A DNA stretch of 64,000 bases from Diadema setosum. Its lineage: Eukaryota; Echinodermata; Echinoidea; Diadematoida; Diadematidae. The notes below the pieces were generated by a model that searched no databases, had not been told where the DNA came from, and worked only from the letters and a program-made list of their open reading frames with translations. A program made the position numbers and the translations under genes. This document shows positions 26,701 to 63,942 of the stretch, one piece after another; position 1 is the first letter of the stretch; every line of letters begins with the position of its first letter. The DNA is taken from the NCBI RefSeq assembly GCF_964275005.1, contig NC_092704.1, positions 10,480,871-10,544,870 on the forward strand. The letters are read 5' to 3'.

Positions 26701-28581
26701 GACAAATCCACCCCCCCCCCCCAATTTACCTTTGGCATACACTTTGTAATCAATATATTCCAGCCTCTCACATTACACATAGCAATTTGACAAGGCCCCA
26801 CACTTGCGGCTTGGCTAAAACACTTTAACCCTAATTATAGATAGGAGGAGCAAGGAGGTACTAGGCTCTCCTACATGTTGAAAAAAAAAAGAACAGTCTG
26901 GGGTTCCACTTTACGCTTGAGCAGACAAAGGTCATTTGTACCAACAGAGTATGTTGGTTTTAAAATTTGCTGAGATAAGTACCTATGGCGTTTTGCTTAT
27001 TCAAGTGATTTTCATAAGTGGAATTTGCCAGCACGACCGCCTTCAGCAAAAGTGGCATTTGGCAATATCAATAGAAAAAAGATTGTTGATACATTCTTTA
27101 ACCTACTAGTACTACACTTGGACATTCATCGTTCATTGATATGCGCCTGTTTCTGTCAAAAGTGTAATAGCAACATTTTAAACATGCTTTTCTGCTCAGA
27201 TGTAATCAAACTCGACAGCATGCCTGTATAAAAACAAGACGACGCTTTGAGAAATCCAAAACCTACATGTGCAGAAGATAACCCAAGAATCAAGAAAAAT
27301 GCATGTGCAGTCGTAGCGAATATTGACAAATGATCGCTCAAGCAATTCGTTTGTGAAATGCACGTGCTTTACAAGAGAAAGAAAATATTTTAGCAGGTCG
27401 ATTGTAATTTGTAGTCTAATTTCCCCCATGTTTTGCGCATTGTTTCAGAGTAAACATGGACACGACACTTAATTACAGTAGGCCTAAAGCTAGAGATGTG
27501 TGTGTCTTACCTTTAAGCAACGGTACGTGGGTGTCCTCTTTAGTAATTACCAATTTTGAGGTACAGAATTCGTCGTGTCATGTTTTGAGATTTGCTGCTC
27601 CCCATCACTGGTTATTCAAAGCAGTCGAGTCTGAAAAGGCACCTAAGCCAAGTAAGACCATAATGAAGGAACGGATCTTTTGTCAGTGACGATGCCCGAT
27701 TACACAATCACCATTGTCCAGACAGCTGGATCCATGTGCGCAATAATAATATGCACCTAATCAGATGGCGGTGGTGATGAGATCAAAGAAAGACCTCCGT
27801 CGGTTGATAGTCCATGTGTGTGGGTCCATGTTACATTCAATGGAAAATACTAGTAATGAAATCAATGCTTTCCTAAGTGTTAATTGATGGACCATTCTGC
27901 TTACCTGGTTTACGCAAGTTGAACATCCTTACTTATTTGAATATGACTGATGAATTCCATCAATTATTACGTCGGCCGAGCATATGCATTTTGTCGCTTT
28001 CAAAACGAGTGAAGTGCCTAACTAACTGAGAAAACAGAAATGTCATTTGTACCCATGTGCACATGAGCTAACTCCAAATTGGCTTATTTCGAAATTGAAT
28101 TACAGTTACATAATTGGCCATCATTTACGATCAGCAACGGTAAACATTCGAGAGAGTGGCTTTAGTAACGGCGCGGATTGTTCTTTATCCGGAGCTATGA
28201 TTACTTTTACTCCCACCAATACTACGACTCACGCCACCCTTTGTACTAGTACACCTGCAGTCAAGACCTTTATTACTTCCCCACATCTTCTTTTTAGATA
28301 CTGCTATACGTTTTATCTACTTCCAATGTTCTTACACCCAACGGCTGTTACCAAGCACTCTTAATTGTTAAAACAATGATCGTAATCAAGTATTATGAGT
28401 ATACTCATGTCACTATAAAGTACATTATATTAATAATGGCATTCTTTCCCACATTTTCTTTCAGATTCTCCCGTGATACGCTGTGCATGGAATGCATCCT
28501 GTCTGCCAGGTTATTATGAGCCCCATCTCCTTGTTTTTCTTGCAATGGATTATGGAGTGACGATCTACAGCCAACCAGAGC
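26701..28581. other. Region upstream of the TPR-TIR gene, no other gene recognised
   Basis: A C-run lies at 26710. Several frames of 60-105 codons (for example 27456-27689 and 28047-28364) have no recognisable motif. A pyrimidine-rich tract ending in CAG at about 28465 and CTACAG at 28570 could be acceptors for an upstream non-coding exon of the TPR-TIR gene. Confidence 0.35.
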
Positions 28582-30636
28582 ATGTATTTTCTTCGTCACC
28601 AAATACCCGACACATCCGATTGCCGTCAGAGACGCGTCATGGCGGCTGGCGGGATCGAAGACGGCGCGGAGAGAGACGTAGGCCTATCCGATGTGTTCTT
28701 CCCCGAGGAGGCAGATAACATCACCCTCCAGATAAAGGATTTCGGTTGCCACCTGAAGTGGAGAGAACTAAAGGGGCTTGACAGGCTGGTACTTTCCAAG
28801 TTTAAGGAAGTACTCGCCGGTGAAACTTGGGACTACAATGACAGGCCCACATATTTCACTGCCGTCCGCAACTTACAGGGTTTCATTGAGTACGAGCTCG
28901 GAAACGAAGTACAGGCTGAAGAGTACTTTTTAGAAGTGCTTGGATATGACCATGAGAACATATGTGCCCTTGGTAACATGGTTCACCTGCTCCAAGAACA
29001 GAACAGCACGAAGGAAGCACACACATACACGGAGAGATTACGTGCAATTTTCGCGAGGTCGGGACAGCGTGATGGCCATTACGAAACCTACCCACATCGC
29101 GCTCTTGCGTACGCGGACAAGGCTCACGCAATTCGATACTTCGAGCAGGATAAGAGATGCTTTCGCTACATGACATATGTGGAGCGTGCGGCCACCATAG
29201 GCCGCTACTGTTTGAACAGTCCTCAGCGAGCTGAGTGGTTCTTTGATCATGCTTTGGCACTGTATCGACGGGACGTGCAGATGGTCTATCTCAGGAAAAT
29301 ATCGGACACCGTGTCGGATGTACTTCAAACGAAGATTCAGTCTGGATACATGAAAGCAATCAAGCTGTTCTATGATGTCATTCAAATTAGTTCCAGCCCT
29401 GCTTACCTGTCTCTGTCCTGGGTATTCATTGGGATGTTGCTCAATCATGACCCCGATAATCGAAGTCTAGAGCGAATATTTCCAGATTCACCGGAACTGA
29501 CCGCTATGAATGCCGACGATTGCTACATTAAAGGGTTGTCGATTGATGATCAGCATGAAATCACAACTCGAAGAGTAGGAGCTGAATATGTGAAACTGAG
29601 GAGGTATAGGGAAGCGAAGACGCTCCTAGACAGATCCATCTCTAGACTGAAGTCTTGGTTTGCTCATCGATATCGCGGAGTTCTCTATCTGTCCTTGTAC
29701 GAGGACAATGCGCAGACAGACGAAGAAATTCACTCGCAGTTCGATGTCACCCCGAGGACGGAACTGCTCAAAATGGCCAAGGAAGAGTTTGAAAAAGCTC
29801 AAAGAGAAAGGATCGTTCACGCCGATTACTCTGACCTCGGTCAAGTCCACTATCTACTCAAGAATATCCGGCAGGCCAAGGCCAAATTCAAGAAGGCACT
29901 TGACAGTGAGCAAGACGACTATTTCGACTTGCTCGAGACCTACCGACGGTGGATTCGATGCGTGAGTGAGGAAAGTCCGGAGGACGTTGCCATACTGCAG
30001 AGGAAGGCAGAAGAGCACCGTTTGAGGTTGGTGGCGACACCTCTGGACACTCATGGAGACAGCTTCAGCGACGACTTTGACCATTACAACAGAGAGGCCA
30101 TTCCAGGCTACGTGCGCCTCCTGAAGGAAGACGACTTTTGGTTAGCTTCGACGACCGGATGTTCTCAACATATAAATTCAAGACTGCCGCGAATTGAGCC
30201 AATCCCTAGGGGTCAGTACAAGTACGACTTCTTTCTATCTTTCCACGAAAGAGATCAGATCTGGAGTCTGGCGCTTTTAAACAAGCTCGAGGCTGAGTGT
30301 AACTTGCGCGGTTGTATCGAGCAGCGGGACTTCGACGTAGGCGAAGACACTATGGTCACCATTAAAAGGTGCCTCCGGGAGAGTTACCGCTTCATTGTGG
30401 TTCTATCACCGCATTACGTCAACGGCAGAGACGCCCGTAGCATTATGCGCGAGGCAACACGGGTGGCGTTCCGCAGGGATGGTCGTTATATCCTGCCCAT
30501 TGAGTTGTCTTTGTGCGAGCACGAGAAACTGGATATGGACGAGATAAACCGAATCGAGTGTAGATATGGACAGATACCTGAGATTCACTGGCAGAATCTT
30601 GTTGACTCAGTACGACAGCCTGACCATGGCCAATGA
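28582..30636 (+). CDS. TPR (IFIT-like) - TIR domain protein, single exon
   Basis: Uninterrupted frame of 684 codons, closed upstream by a stop at 28558. The N-terminal half (about residues 40-500) is a helical array with TPR-like pairs, for example LQGFIEYELGNEVQAEEYF and VKLRRYREAKTLLDRSI. The CHLKWREL segment near residue 55 recalls the start of IFIT proteins. A TIR domain follows (about 546-650): box 1 is YDFFLSFHERD (548-558), the BB loop QRDFDVGE (581-588), then VVLSPHYV and an MREATRVAF helix. Glu624 in that helix sits where SARM1-type TIR NADases have their catalytic Glu. TIR domains either recruit signalling partners (MyD88) or cleave NAD+ (SARM1); which applies here is unknown. No signal peptide or membrane segment was seen. 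ATG at 28639 (GTCATGG, stronger Kozak, 665 residues) may be the true start. No clear poly(A) signal was found. The absence of introns contrasts with MOB4 and WASF. Confidence 0.9.
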   Translation: MYFLRHQIPDTSDCRQRRVMAAGGIEDGAERDVGLSDVFFPEEADNITLQIKDFGCHLKWRELKGLDRLVLSKFKEVLAGETWDYNDRPTYFTAVRNLQGFIEYELGNEVQAEEYFLEVLGYDHENICALGNMVHLLQEQNSTKEAHTYTERLRAIFARSGQRDGHYETYPHRALAYADKAHAIRYFEQDKRCFRYMTYVERAATIGRYCLNSPQRAEWFFDHALALYRRDVQMVYLRKISDTVSDVLQTKIQSGYMKAIKLFYDVIQISSSPAYLSLSWVFIGMLLNHDPDNRSLERIFPDSPELTAMNADDCYIKGLSIDDQHEITTRRVGAEYVKLRRYREAKTLLDRSISRLKSWFAHRYRGVLYLSLYEDNAQTDEEIHSQFDVTPRTELLKMAKEEFEKAQRERIVHADYSDLGQVHYLLKNIRQAKAKFKKALDSEQDDYFDLLETYRRWIRCVSEESPEDVAILQRKAEEHRLRLVATPLDTHGDSFSDDFDHYNREAIPGYVRLLKEDDFWLASTTGCSQHINSRLPRIEPIPRGQYKYDFFLSFHERDQIWSLALLNKLEAECNLRGCIEQRDFDVGEDTMVTIKRCLRESYRFIVVLSPHYVNGRDARSIMREATRVAFRRDGRYILPIELSLCEHEKLDMDEINRIECRYGQIPEIHWQNLVDSVRQPDHGQ

Positions 30637-48287: not shown

Positions 48288-48482
48288 TTTTAGTAGTAGC
48301 CATGATAAAAAGATCATGGGTGTACATACTCGAGCAGGATTCGAACCTACGACCTCCTGATCACCGGACAGGCATCATCTCGACTAGACCACCGAGCTGT
48401 CCGGTGATCAGGAGGTCGTAGGTTCGAATCCTGCTCGAGTATGTATGACCATGATTTTTTTTTATCATGGCTACTACTAAAA
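48288..48482. repeat. Foldback tRNA-like SINE hairpin
   Basis: Arms of about 84 bp (48288-48371 and 48397-48482) are nearly perfect inverse copies with a 25-nt loop. Each contains a B box (GGTTCGAATCC on the minus strand at about 48352, and on the plus strand at 48421). An A-box-like TGGTCTAGTCG lies in the loop on the minus strand, so that strand holds a complete tRNA-like promoter. The other arm duplicates its 3' half and tail in inverted orientation. Confidence 0.8.
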
Positions 48483-60290: not shown

Positions 60291-60303
60291 TATATATATA
60301 TAT

Positions 60304-60342
<39 letters not shown>
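60218..60342. repeat. (TA)n microsatellite at the left edge of the Penelope-like element
   Basis: About 125 bp of TA with two small interruptions, running directly into the element's terminal TATACGTAAG. Confidence 0.97.
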
Positions 60343-60343
<1 letters not shown>

Positions 60344-60486
60344 CGTAAGTAGAGTGTGAACTGCAATATGGCTGACAGTGCTCAACTATATAGGAGCCCA
60401 TGTAGTACAATATATAGTAGGATGGAAGGCGTTGCTTTATTAGTGACTTAGCTGGGCAGTCTGTTTCGGCCGAAGCCTCGTCAGCA
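60340..60486 (-). repeat. 3' pseudo-LTR of the Penelope-like element
   Basis: This 147-bp segment (plus-strand ATACGTAAGTAGAGTGTGAA to GCCTCGTCAGCAA) is repeated in the same orientation at 62845-62991 with only a few substitutions. In the element's own minus-strand sense this is its 3' terminal copy. Confidence 0.9.
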
Positions 60487-60494
60487 ACTAAATC
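60445..60494 (-). ncRNA. Hammerhead ribozyme motif, copy 1 (GCC triplet)
   Basis: Minus strand: stem I GAUUUAGUUG with CAGCUAAGUC (10 bp, two G-U pairs), core CUGACGA, stem II GGC-UUCG-GCC, core GAAA, a minimal stem III CA/UG with a 3-nt loop, then the cleavage triplet. The triplet is GCC, not the NUH needed for efficient self-cleavage, so this copy is probably weak or inactive. Confidence 0.8.
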
Positions 60495-61671
60495 AGTTTC
60501 TTGTTAAAGTACAGTGTAAGACATACGGCTCTGGTGCACTCAAGCAAGCAAACAAAAGATACAAAAGATACATGCACGTGGCTACTTAACAGCACAATAA
60601 AGTTGATAATGGCACTGGTACTGGGCTTAACGTAAGGCAGGGGTATTATGGTTACATGTCGATGCCGGGGGGGGGGGGGGGGGGGACGACAAACCAAGCT
60701 CTGCGAGGGAAAACTTTTTCTTAATATGTTTACATGTTGAAATGAGTTCTGTTCTTGAGTTAAGGATGGCTGGTTTCTTGGTCGTGATAATGTGGTATTT
60801 CTCCCATAGACACAGGTTGCAACGGTTTGTTTTGGGCGAGTATGGTTGGGCGTGCCTGACGATCCTCCATGTGAGTGAGTGGGGAGTGCCTTCATCCTTC
60901 AGTCCCCAAATGTATTTACTCAGTTCTGTCTGGTGTCTCTTTTCCCTGTTTGCGAAGCTTGCCTTGTGTGTAGCATATCTGGATTTGAAGGAGGTTGAGG
61001 TAAGGCCGATGTATACTTTCTCATCGTTTGGGGTCGCTACCTTCGCCTCGTATATGATGTTCCTGGCTGTGCATTTCCCAGGGATCGGGCAATCCTCCTT
61101 CTTTCTGAGTTCAGGAGTCCCTGGCTTGCTCTTGACTGTTGTTGGTTATTTTTTTGTTGTGTGCCTTTGTTATAGTGTGCATATTGTCCATGCAGCTGTA
61201 GCTTACTTTCAGAGTGTTCCTGTTGCATATCTTGCTGAGCTGATGTTCTTTAGGGAAGGGGTGCTCGACGAGGGCTAGGAACTTCCTCCCGATGTTTGTT
61301 TTAACATGTCTGCTGAACGGGGGGTTGAACCACGTTATGTTTCGTTTCCTTTGGTGTTGTTTTTCTTTTCTGCAGCTGTTGGTCTCTTTGGGAGTGTACG
61401 TCAATGTTGTTTGGTGTCCGGCCTCGTGGAGTGCGTTCTCGTAGTCTGGTTTGGTGCTGTTGAAGATTTCCTCGTTGCTGGAGATGTTGGATAGGCGCGT
61501 CTGGATGGACTGTGGTATTCTCTTGGTGACGGTGGGTGGATGGTTGGATTCTGTATGCACGTATAGGTGTGAGTCCCCTGGCTTCGAGTACGGTTTGAAT
61601 TCCTTCTTGGTGAGGTCGAATGTGACATCGAGGAAGTCGACGATGGTGTTATTTGCACTGGCCGTTATCTG

Positions 61672-62472
61672 TTACCCAAACTCTTTGAATTTTTCGCAGA
61701 GCATCTTTTTGGTGTTCTCGGCTGCTCTGCGGGGTTTGTGGATAATGGCAAGACCATCATCTCGGTAGAGCCCGATGTTTTCTTTGGGGATTGTGGAGCC
61801 GATTTCTCCTAGTATGTATGCACCCACAAGTTCGCATGTTTCAGCTCCATCGTATGAGCCCATCGTGACATCGAAGAGGTCATCCGCGTTTGCTTTTTGC
61901 CAAGGCTCGTTGTCATGGAAAAGGAGGGTGTTCTTGGCGTGGAAGATGATCTCTTCTTCCGCTGGCGTAATCGTGGTGAATGTTTTTGCGTATTTGATGG
62001 CTTTGTTGAGCAGTTTCCTGTCAATGGATGGGTAGAAATTGACTACGTCGAACGAAAGGAATGTGGAGTTTTGCCTTGTCGGGGTACCCTTGAACCAGTT
62101 GATGACTGCGGTGGTGTTTTTCCATTGGTTGACCTTCGTCGCTTCCAGGACCTTGTCATTGATTCTCTCCAGCACTGTCTTCGATATGATGCCGATTTCA
62201 CTCTTGCTTGGGTTGATGAGCCTGCATGTAGGGTGATTCCGGAAATTGTCGTTGTGGTCTTTCAGTGTGATGTATGCTTGCTTCGGGGCTAGTACCTGGA
62301 TCCTGTCGGAAAGCTCTAGATTTTCGGCGATCCTTTTGGCCTCTACATTCGTGCTGTGCTCTGTTTGGTGGTTTGACCTCCTGTATGTAGTTGTGACATT
62401 ATCTCTCATCAACTTGTTGTATTCTCTGGGAGTGACTGAGTAGTAGTTGTTTGTTTTGTCGGCAGGCACCAA
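61672..62472 (-). pseudogene. Penelope-like reverse transcriptase fragment
   Basis: An open stretch of 266 codons covers the RT fingers and palm: VPADKTNNYYSV at the start, RLINPSKSEIG, FDVVNFYPSI (catalytic Asp), MGSYDGAETCELVGAY and YRDDGLAI (catalytic Asp pair). It is one piece of the element's single long ORF, whose parts continue in other frames on either side. The ATG at its start is not the original start. Such RTs are related to telomerase in phylogenies; that is family knowledge. Confidence 0.9.
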
Positions 62473-62844
62473 GATGTTTTTTCTCGCTGCGTATCCTTCT
62501 CAGGTCCTCCTTTAGTTTGTTCTGGAATGGTGAGTTGACGTTGCGGAATTTGACATCTTCGATCAGTTTGAGCAAGTTATCTTCGAAGGGTTTCAGCTAA
62601 GGGACAGATGGAGGGGACTTTTGGCTTCTGAATCCGTAAGTTTCTCTGCGGTCGGTCTTTGAGTCTTGGTTTAAGAAGAAGAATGCTCGCCATCGTAGTT
62701 GTTTTATGAAGTCCTCGACTTTCTGTATCAGTCTCTTAATGTATTCGCTATTAGGCGGCACTGGTATGTTCTTCGTGCTGTACTTGAAGCAAAACTTTTC
62801 CATCCTCAGGTTGCAGATTAGAGTGCTCGACGGAGGGAGCGGTT

Positions 62845-62991
62845 ATACGTAAGTAGAGTGTGAACTGCAATATGGCTGACAGTGCTCAACTATATAGGAG
62901 CCCATGTAGTACAATATATAGTAGGATGGAAGGCGTTGCTCTATTAGTGACTTAGCTGGACAGTCTGTTTCGGCCGAAGCCTCGTCAGCAA
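62845..62991 (-). repeat. 5' pseudo-LTR of the Penelope-like element
   Basis: Direct copy of 60340-60486. It is followed, in the minus-strand sense, by the start of the element's coding region, and preceded by the inverted truncated copy. The junction lies at about 62991, where GTCAGCAA meets GCTCAGCAAG, with short shared sequence (CAGCAA). Confidence 0.88.
62949..62991 (-). ncRNA. Hammerhead ribozyme core, copy 2 (GUC triplet, stem I cut)
   Basis: CUGACGA, stem II GGC-UUCG-GCC, GAAA and the minimal stem III are identical to copy 1, but the cleavage triplet is the canonical GUC. The 5' strand of stem I is replaced by sequence of the joined inverted copy, so this copy can no longer form a full stem I by itself. 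Confidence 0.7.
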
Positions 62992-63003
62992 GCTCAGCAA
63001 GAT

Positions 63004-63570
63004 ATGCAACAGGAACACTCTGAAAGTAAGCTACAGCTGCATGGACAATATGCACACTATAACAAAGGCACACAACAAAAAATAACCAACAACAGTCAAG
63101 AGCAAGCCAGGGACTCCTGCAACTGCAGAAAGAAGGAGGATTGCCCGATCCCTGGGAAATGCACAGCCAGGAACATCATATACGAGGCGAAGGTAGCGAC
63201 CCCAAACGATGAGAAAGTATACATCGGCCTTACCTCAACCTCCTTCAAATCCAGATATGCTACACACAAGGCAAGCTTCGCAAACAGGGAAAAGAGACAC
63301 CAGACGGAACTGAGTAAATACATTTGGGGACTGAAGGATGAAGGCACTCCCTACTCACTCACATGGAGGATCGTCAGGCACGCCCAACCATACTCGCCCA
63401 AAACAAACCGTTGCAACCTGTGTCTATGGGAGAAATACCACATCATCACGACCAAGAAACCAGCCATCCTTAACTCAAGAACAGAACTCATTTCAACATG
63501 TAAACATAAGAAAAAGTTTTCCCTCGCAGAGCTTGGTTTGTCCCCCCCCCCCCCCGGCATCCACATGTAA
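63004..63570 (+). CDS. GIY-YIG endonuclease domain ORF of the truncated Penelope-like copy
   Basis: An intact frame of 188 codons. A Cys cluster (Cys39, Cys41, Cys47, Cys53) precedes the nuclease. NIIYEAK and KVYIGLTSTSFKSRY supply the two GIY-YIG strands (IIY around residue 60, YIG at 73-75) and the catalytic Arg84; His88 follows. CNLCLWEKYHII gives the metal-binding Glu143, and LNSRTELISTC follows. This set is characteristic of Penelope-like element nucleases, which nick the target for priming. The first 25 or so codons are partly out of the ancestral frame, and a C-run adds a Pro stretch at the end. The frame belongs to a truncated element without its RT, so it is unlikely to act as a gene. 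Confidence 0.8.
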   Translation: MQQEHSESKLQLHGQYAHYNKGTQQKITNNSQEQARDSCNCRKKEDCPIPGKCTARNIIYEAKVATPNDEKVYIGLTSTSFKSRYATHKASFANREKRHQTELSKYIWGLKDEGTPYSLTWRIVRHAQPYSPKTNRCNLCLWEKYHIITTKKPAILNSRTELISTCKHKKKFSLAELGLSPPPPGIHM

Positions 63571-63727
63571 CCATATTACCCCTGCCTTACGTTAAGCCCA
63601 GTACCAGTGTCATTATCAACTTTATTGTGTTGTTAAGTAGCCACTTGCATGTATCTTTTGTATCTTTTGTTTGCTTGCTTGAGTGCACCAGAGCCGTATG
63701 TCTTACACTGTACTTTAACAAGAAACT

Positions 63728-63777
63728 GATTTAGTTGCTGACGAGGCTTCGGCCGAAACAGACTGCCCAGCTAAGTC
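63728..63777 (+). ncRNA. Hammerhead ribozyme motif, copy 3 (GCC triplet)
   Basis: Identical core and stems to copy 1, on the plus strand: stem I 63728-63737 with 63768-63777, CTGACGA 63738-63744, stem II 63745-63754, GAAA 63755-63758. The cleavage triplet is GCC. Confidence 0.8.
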
Positions 63778-63816
63778 ACTAATAAAGCAACGCCTTCCAT
63801 CCTACTATATATTGTA

Positions 63817-63819
<3 letters not shown>

Positions 63820-63860
<41 letters not shown>
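63820..63860. repeat. (TA)n microsatellite at the right edge of the Penelope-like element
   Basis: About 40 bp of TA, starting inside the GTACTGTATATA end of the truncated copy. Confidence 0.95.
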
Positions 63861-63862
<2 letters not shown>

Positions 63863-63942
63863 CATTAATATCTTTGGTACATATAAGTTAGCAGTATTTT
63901 TTTTTCAACACCATATTTTCCTCTGTCTTTTTTCATTTGCAG

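Follow-up and report, generated by a model that had tools for sequence, protein, structure and literature searches.

Minimal type I hammerhead ribozymes (HHRs) were reportedly described in Penelope-like elements (PLEs) by Cervera and De la Pena in 2014 and by Lunse, Weinberg and Breaker in 2017. Passages in reviews present these HHRs as minimal type I variants that are arranged in tandem and possibly act as dimers, and call their role unknown. Here we describe such an arrangement in a 64,000-nucleotide stretch of the genome of the echinoid Diadema setosum (contig NC_092704.1; hereafter the window), in which a first-pass annotation made from the sequence alone had placed three HHR cores, numbered copies 1 to 3 below in the order of their coordinates. 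The locus very probably holds an endonuclease-bearing PLE, now disabled, as two head-to-head copies within (TA)n; its minimal type I HHRs would be the three motifs, two of them in direct pseudo-long terminal repeats (pLTRs) and the third in the inverted copy. The identity of the element and its motifs is argued from sequence and element anatomy, and from these we infer how the motifs would work.

Two described elements come closest in anatomy. In excerpts of the report on Adineta vaga (PMC3846280), Penelope has two direct pLTRs and an inverted pLTR, an optional 31-bp tail and AT-rich targets, and head-to-head is given as the commonest inverted layout; hammerheads are not mentioned in that report (0 occurrences). 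The Poseidon element PAc of Anolis carolinensis has, according to excerpts of PMC11167929, two reverse transcription start sites 30–40 bp apart and an HHR cut 26 bp from the start codon. Compared with these elements, the locus in the window shares with the Adineta element the two direct pLTRs, an inverted partial copy placed head to head, the optional tail and the AT-rich target, and differs from it in that the inverted part is 828 bp, reaches the open reading frame (ORF) and meets the other copy at a junction without a palindrome. With PAc it shares an ORF with putative reverse transcriptase (RT) and GIY-YIG parts, pLTRs, an HHR at the pLTR/ORF start, an AT-rich target, two 3′ ends set apart by a tail, and a nearly equal cut-site distance, namely 27 nt from the A of GACGA in the window as against 26 bp. 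Unlike PAc, the element in the window has no AUG in its CUGACGA, at what would be the start-codon equivalent, its tail is 64 bp rather than 30–40, and its copy is broken.

All three HHR cores are present on the strands given in the first-pass annotation, both in a reading of the sequence and in a descriptor search, and as far as sequence can tell they are confirmed as minimal type I hammerhead cores lying where that annotation put them, with self-cleavage as a prediction. The series CUGACGA-GGC-UUCG-GCC-GAAA-CA-GAC-UG is common to the three copies without differences, and stem III is in each the 2-bp CA/UG. Core boxes and stem III stand as first described, and only stem I has to be corrected, from 10 bp to a measured 11 bp, two G-U pairs among these, in copies 1 and 3. 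Within the cleavage triplet, position 16.1 is C in copy 1 (60456) and copy 3 (63766) and T/U in copy 2 (62960). Triplets other than GUC are cleavable, slowly (the NHH rule), and if NHH is allowed copies 1 and 3 have the type I layout (CUGANGA, stem II, GAAA, stem III, triplet, stem I). Copy 2 has the canonical GUC but a stem I of only 3 bp, and the earlier remark that completeness and the canonical triplet do not coincide in any one copy is correct, GCC going with the full stem I and GUC with the short one. The window copies resemble the minimal HHRs of PLEs in their type I order, very short stem III and tandem pLTR position, and their stem III segment is self-complementary, which would allow dimers. 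They differ in having GCC rather than GUC in two of three cases and in the short stem I of the upstream copy. The three are nearly identical to one another and are counted as a single observation.

The descriptor was composed after the copies had been seen, and combines CUGANGA, a stem II of at least 3 bp, GAA-A, a stem III of at least 2 bp and an NHH triplet. It matched the window in exactly three places, which are the three HHR copies, while 300 dinucleotide shuffles gave a mean of 0.033 places per window with a maximum of 1 in any shuffle, and a stem I of at least 5 bp in none of the 300. As a separate observation, CTGANGA by itself was seen 48 times on both strands of the window against 30.4 expected, a count reached by 0 of 100 shuffles, and 6 of the 48 sites fall within 60340–63818.

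The placement of the HHR motifs in the pLTRs of a PLE, also claimed in the first-pass annotation, is supported by the sequence, by element anatomy and by the review passages. The main copy, read along the minus strand, opens with a 148-bp repeat, continues with a broken frame to about 60627 and a 3′ untranslated region (UTR), and closes with the same repeat (Table 1). The two pLTRs are identical at 146 of 148 positions; one difference lies in the cleavage triplet and the other at 60437/62941, and in each case copy 2 departs from the letter shared by copies 1 and 3. Copy 2 may have mutated, or the source RNA may have carried unlike pLTRs, either of which could be the origin of GUC versus GCC. 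The inverted copy differs from the main copy by 11 mismatches and 14 gap columns over 840. The two lie head to head, with their 5′ ends meeting at 62991 and their 3′ ends directed outward into (TA)n at 63818 (the equivalent of 60404) and at about 60340, 64 bp apart. No other copy of the element was found in the window, every repeat match lying inside 60340–63818. Just past the GIY-YIG frame the main and the inverted copies have a poly-G/poly-C run of unequal length (about 60664–60688 versus 63542–63556), and the GIY-YIG region, interrupted in the main copy, lies in one 204-codon open frame in the inverted copy (62956–63570, plus strand).

Table 1. Features of the Penelope-like element and its hammerhead motifs (window coordinates).
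Feature	Position	Strand	Remarks
HHR copy 1	60444-60495	-	descriptor search; 11-bp stem I; GCC triplet 60455-60457
HHR copy 2	62948-62991	-	descriptor search; 3-bp stem I; GUC triplet 62959-62961
HHR copy 3	63727-63778	+	descriptor search; same as copy 1; 11-bp stem I; GCC triplet 63765-63767
Upstream (5′) pLTR	62844-62991	-	direct repeat; starts at head-to-head junction, 3 nt ahead of CUGACGA
Downstream (3′) pLTR	60340-60487	-	direct repeat of 62844-62991; includes 64-bp tail 60340-60403; continues into (TA)n
Inverted 5′-truncated second copy	62991-63818	+	counterpart of 60404-61241; (TA)n at end, without tail
Broken PLE reading frame	60627-62842	-	interrupted by stops and frame changes
N-terminal piece of frame	62597-62842	-	
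RT piece	61672-62499	-	motifs YRDDGLA and FDVVNFYPSID, read by eye
Middle piece of frame	61111-61671	-	
GIY-YIG piece	60627-61145	-	

The short stem I of copy 2 looks less like decay than like the start of the 5′ pLTR. The direct repeat begins 3 nt ahead of CUGACGA. The 5′ strand of stem I therefore belongs to the 3′ UTR and not to the repeat, and among the pLTRs of this locus only those with the 3′ UTR ahead of them have this strand. The GUC copy is incomplete in stem I, as had been noted; the supposed loss of half the stem need not reflect decay, because the repeat boundary lies inside stem I.

The RNA that was copied into this insertion was uncut at the HHR position, since the two inserted copies each continue across the cut position and the upstream pLTR starts 33 nt ahead of it. 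The same distance rules out the 5′ end at copy 2 as an HHR cleavage product. From the cut position it is 51 nt to the short 3′ end and about 111–115 nt to the long one, the latter end being ambiguous over TATA. An uncut template fits a retroelement that reverse-transcribes unprocessed RNA, starting inside the start of the ORF.

PLE transcripts would carry HHRs whose stem III is too short for good monomers, so that dimers or an element protein would come into play. The proposal of the first-pass annotation that tandem pLTRs allow a dimer is supported as a possibility by the sequence, the anatomy and the review passages, with the restriction that only copies 1 and 2 could pair within one transcript; copy 3 is outside the tandem pair because it lies on the other strand, in the inverted 5′-truncated copy. 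The stem III segment CAGACUG self-pairs at 6 of 7 positions, and ACAGACUGU at 8 of 9, with 7 of 9 in the mixed pair. This self-pairing lends weak support to the dimer reading, because the third pair is expected by chance in 37.5% of 7-mers that have the outer two pairs. In a dimer joined through stem III, the catalytic half of one HHR would meet the triplet and the 3′ stem I strand of the other. With CAG-A-CUG as the shared stem III, the catalytic half would come from the downstream copy 1 and the GUC substrate half from the upstream copy 2, and together they would form one complete canonical site with an 11-bp stem I and GUC. The reverse site, with copy 2 as catalyst and copy 1 as substrate, would have a 3-bp stem I and GCC. 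The predicted cut in copy 2 of this pair is 5′ of CAGCUAAG.

Several results weigh against the identification of these motifs as the working HHRs of a PLE. Stem covariation is unreadable from three near-identical copies. The covariance-model check that had been proposed with the first-pass annotation gave nothing at Rfam cut-offs: no hammerhead reached the gathering score in the whole window, and no hammerhead match appeared up to E 10 when 60300–63900 was scanned in one piece. Weak matches came only from 76-nt pieces, every one below the gathering cut-off, with copy 2 at 18.8 bits (E 0.014) against RF00163 Hammerhead_1 (cut-off 34) and at 12.6 bits against RF03152 RAGATH-1-hammerhead (cut-off 56.3), to which copies 1 and 3 each matched at 15.4 bits (E 1.2). 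RAGATH-1-hammerhead is the best or second-best Rfam hammerhead match for the window copies, but its scores for copies 1 to 3 (15.4, 12.6 and 15.4 bits) are below the cut-off of 56.3. In these sub-threshold alignments the hammerhead boxes are in the correct register for each of the three copies, and the matches are hints, not family membership under Rfam's rule. In energy folding, a model that leaves tertiary contacts and protein outside, the lowest-energy fold of copy 1 was −17.7 versus −12.0 kcal/mol as HHR, that of copy 2 −16.2 versus 0.0, that of the dimer of copies 1 and 2 −42.7 versus −23.1, and that of the copy 1 self-dimer −43.7 versus −35.1 kcal/mol.

The protein evidence counts on both sides, the readable motifs and weak profile matches speaking for a PLE, and the failure of every protein profile to reach its curated cut-off against it. 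The GIY-YIG motif KVYIGLTS is readable in the element, and it and the two RT motifs of Table 1 are typical of PLEs. The RT piece matched the retron-RT profile weakly (E 0.003, 16.9 bits; cut-off 235), matched no Pfam RT family up to E 10, and gave an unusable single-sequence AlphaFold model with a mean predicted local distance difference test (pLDDT) of 34; the matches to the GIY-YIG family PF01541 were also weak (E 0.015–0.016, 15.9 and 16.1 bits; cut-off 22.6). Because profile support is weak, the PLE assignment is based mainly on anatomy. Among PDB sequences the RT piece had no relative, the single match (E 0.3) bearing an unrelated name, and tblastn of the piece against phages gave no match. 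In viral contigs a pattern of the RT piece had 16 matches, none of them a relative, and a pattern of the RT motif had one locus, which was absent from the tblastn matches at E up to 10. For PAc, excerpts of PMC11167929 state that HHR mutants left in vitro insertion unchanged and that RNA-seq reads neither began nor ended at the cut site, and because of these results HHR cleavage may, by analogy, have no role in mobility.

Much of this would also fit the view that the element is dead and its motifs are inactive remnants, with GCC and the absence of one stem I strand due to ordinary decay and no cleavage at the locus, a view we consider evenly poised between true and false. It gains from an ORF broken by several stops and frame changes, from the divergence between main and inverted copies and from the preference of monomers and dimers alike for other folds by energy. 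The core is nevertheless the same in three copies and stem I the same in copies 1 and 3, an agreement mostly explained by whole-copy near-identity, and the truncation of stem I falls at the end of the direct repeat and not within it.

The head-to-head layout could have arisen if the PLE enzyme attacked both strands of (TA)n, nicking and extending each and leaving two cDNAs with 3′ ends outward and 5′ ends joined; we put this forward tentatively, and rather doubt it. It would account for two 3′ ends that face (TA)n and 5′ ends that meet at one point, and purified PAc protein acts on both strands, cutting and extending each, with a preference for AT-rich DNA, according to excerpts of PMC11167929, but the two copies differ in their 3′ ends, one having the tail and the other lacking it, and a target-site duplication is not readable in (TA)n. 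A published proposal explains such head-to-head copies by self-priming on an antisense template (excerpts of PMC3846280), and two successive insertions are possible.

A second control used 118 listed matches in prokaryotic contigs to the looser core pattern CTGANGAGNCNNNNGNCGAAAC, to which the same stem III and triplet rules were applied. Among the 118 matches listed, 71 failed the stem III or the triplet rule, and stem I was at least 8 bp in 1, at least 7 in 2 and at least 5 in 3. The HHR core pattern had 0 matches in viral contigs. Chance resemblance, by which CUGACGA-hairpin-GAAA matches would be no ribozymes, is highly improbable: one of the listed prokaryotic matches also has a long stem I and stays below every Rfam hammerhead cut-off, as do the window copies, but no shuffle gave a comparable stem I, and the pLTRs of PLEs are the expected place for HHRs.

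Some further features were seen. On an Akkermansia-binned contig (L027:5182-5264, minus strand) the space between tRNA-Pro and tRNA-His genes contains a CTGACGA-hairpin-GAAA core flanked by an 18-bp helix; the core matches Rfam Hammerhead_3 at 14.5 bits (cut-off 48.5) and may be either a bacterial hammerhead or a terminator-like hairpin. In the window, a 691-codon open frame at 28561–30636 (plus strand) has a TIR domain (PF01582, E 3e-12) behind weak TPR repeats and looks like an intronless TPR-TIR gene of innate-immunity type. An Rfam tRNA-like match of 37.5 bits at 48326–48398 (minus strand), where ARAGORN makes no call, is perhaps a tRNA-derived short interspersed nuclear element (SINE) or a pseudogene.

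The finding is largely ordinary, PLE anatomy and minimal dimer-acting HHRs in PLEs being already known, and as found the locus is one more broken copy in a widespread, described class. Only the asymmetric dimer could surprise a specialist, on the evidence of one locus. It would lead to a split one-way ribozyme, an idea we rate as unlikely, in which the start of the 5′ pLTR inside stem I leaves the upstream HHR of a full-length PLE to act as substrate only, and the downstream HHR acts only as a full catalyst. The dimer would trim the 5′ end of the transcript at the GUC of copy 2 and spare the downstream site, which GCC would spare further. Continuity of the downstream site with the RT start region would be required for insertion, and insertion would select slow downstream sites. 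If pLTR boundaries in stem I and weakened downstream sites were general, there would be a simple reason for two unequal HHRs in these elements, which, if this is true, would amount to 5′ processing with 3′ protection.

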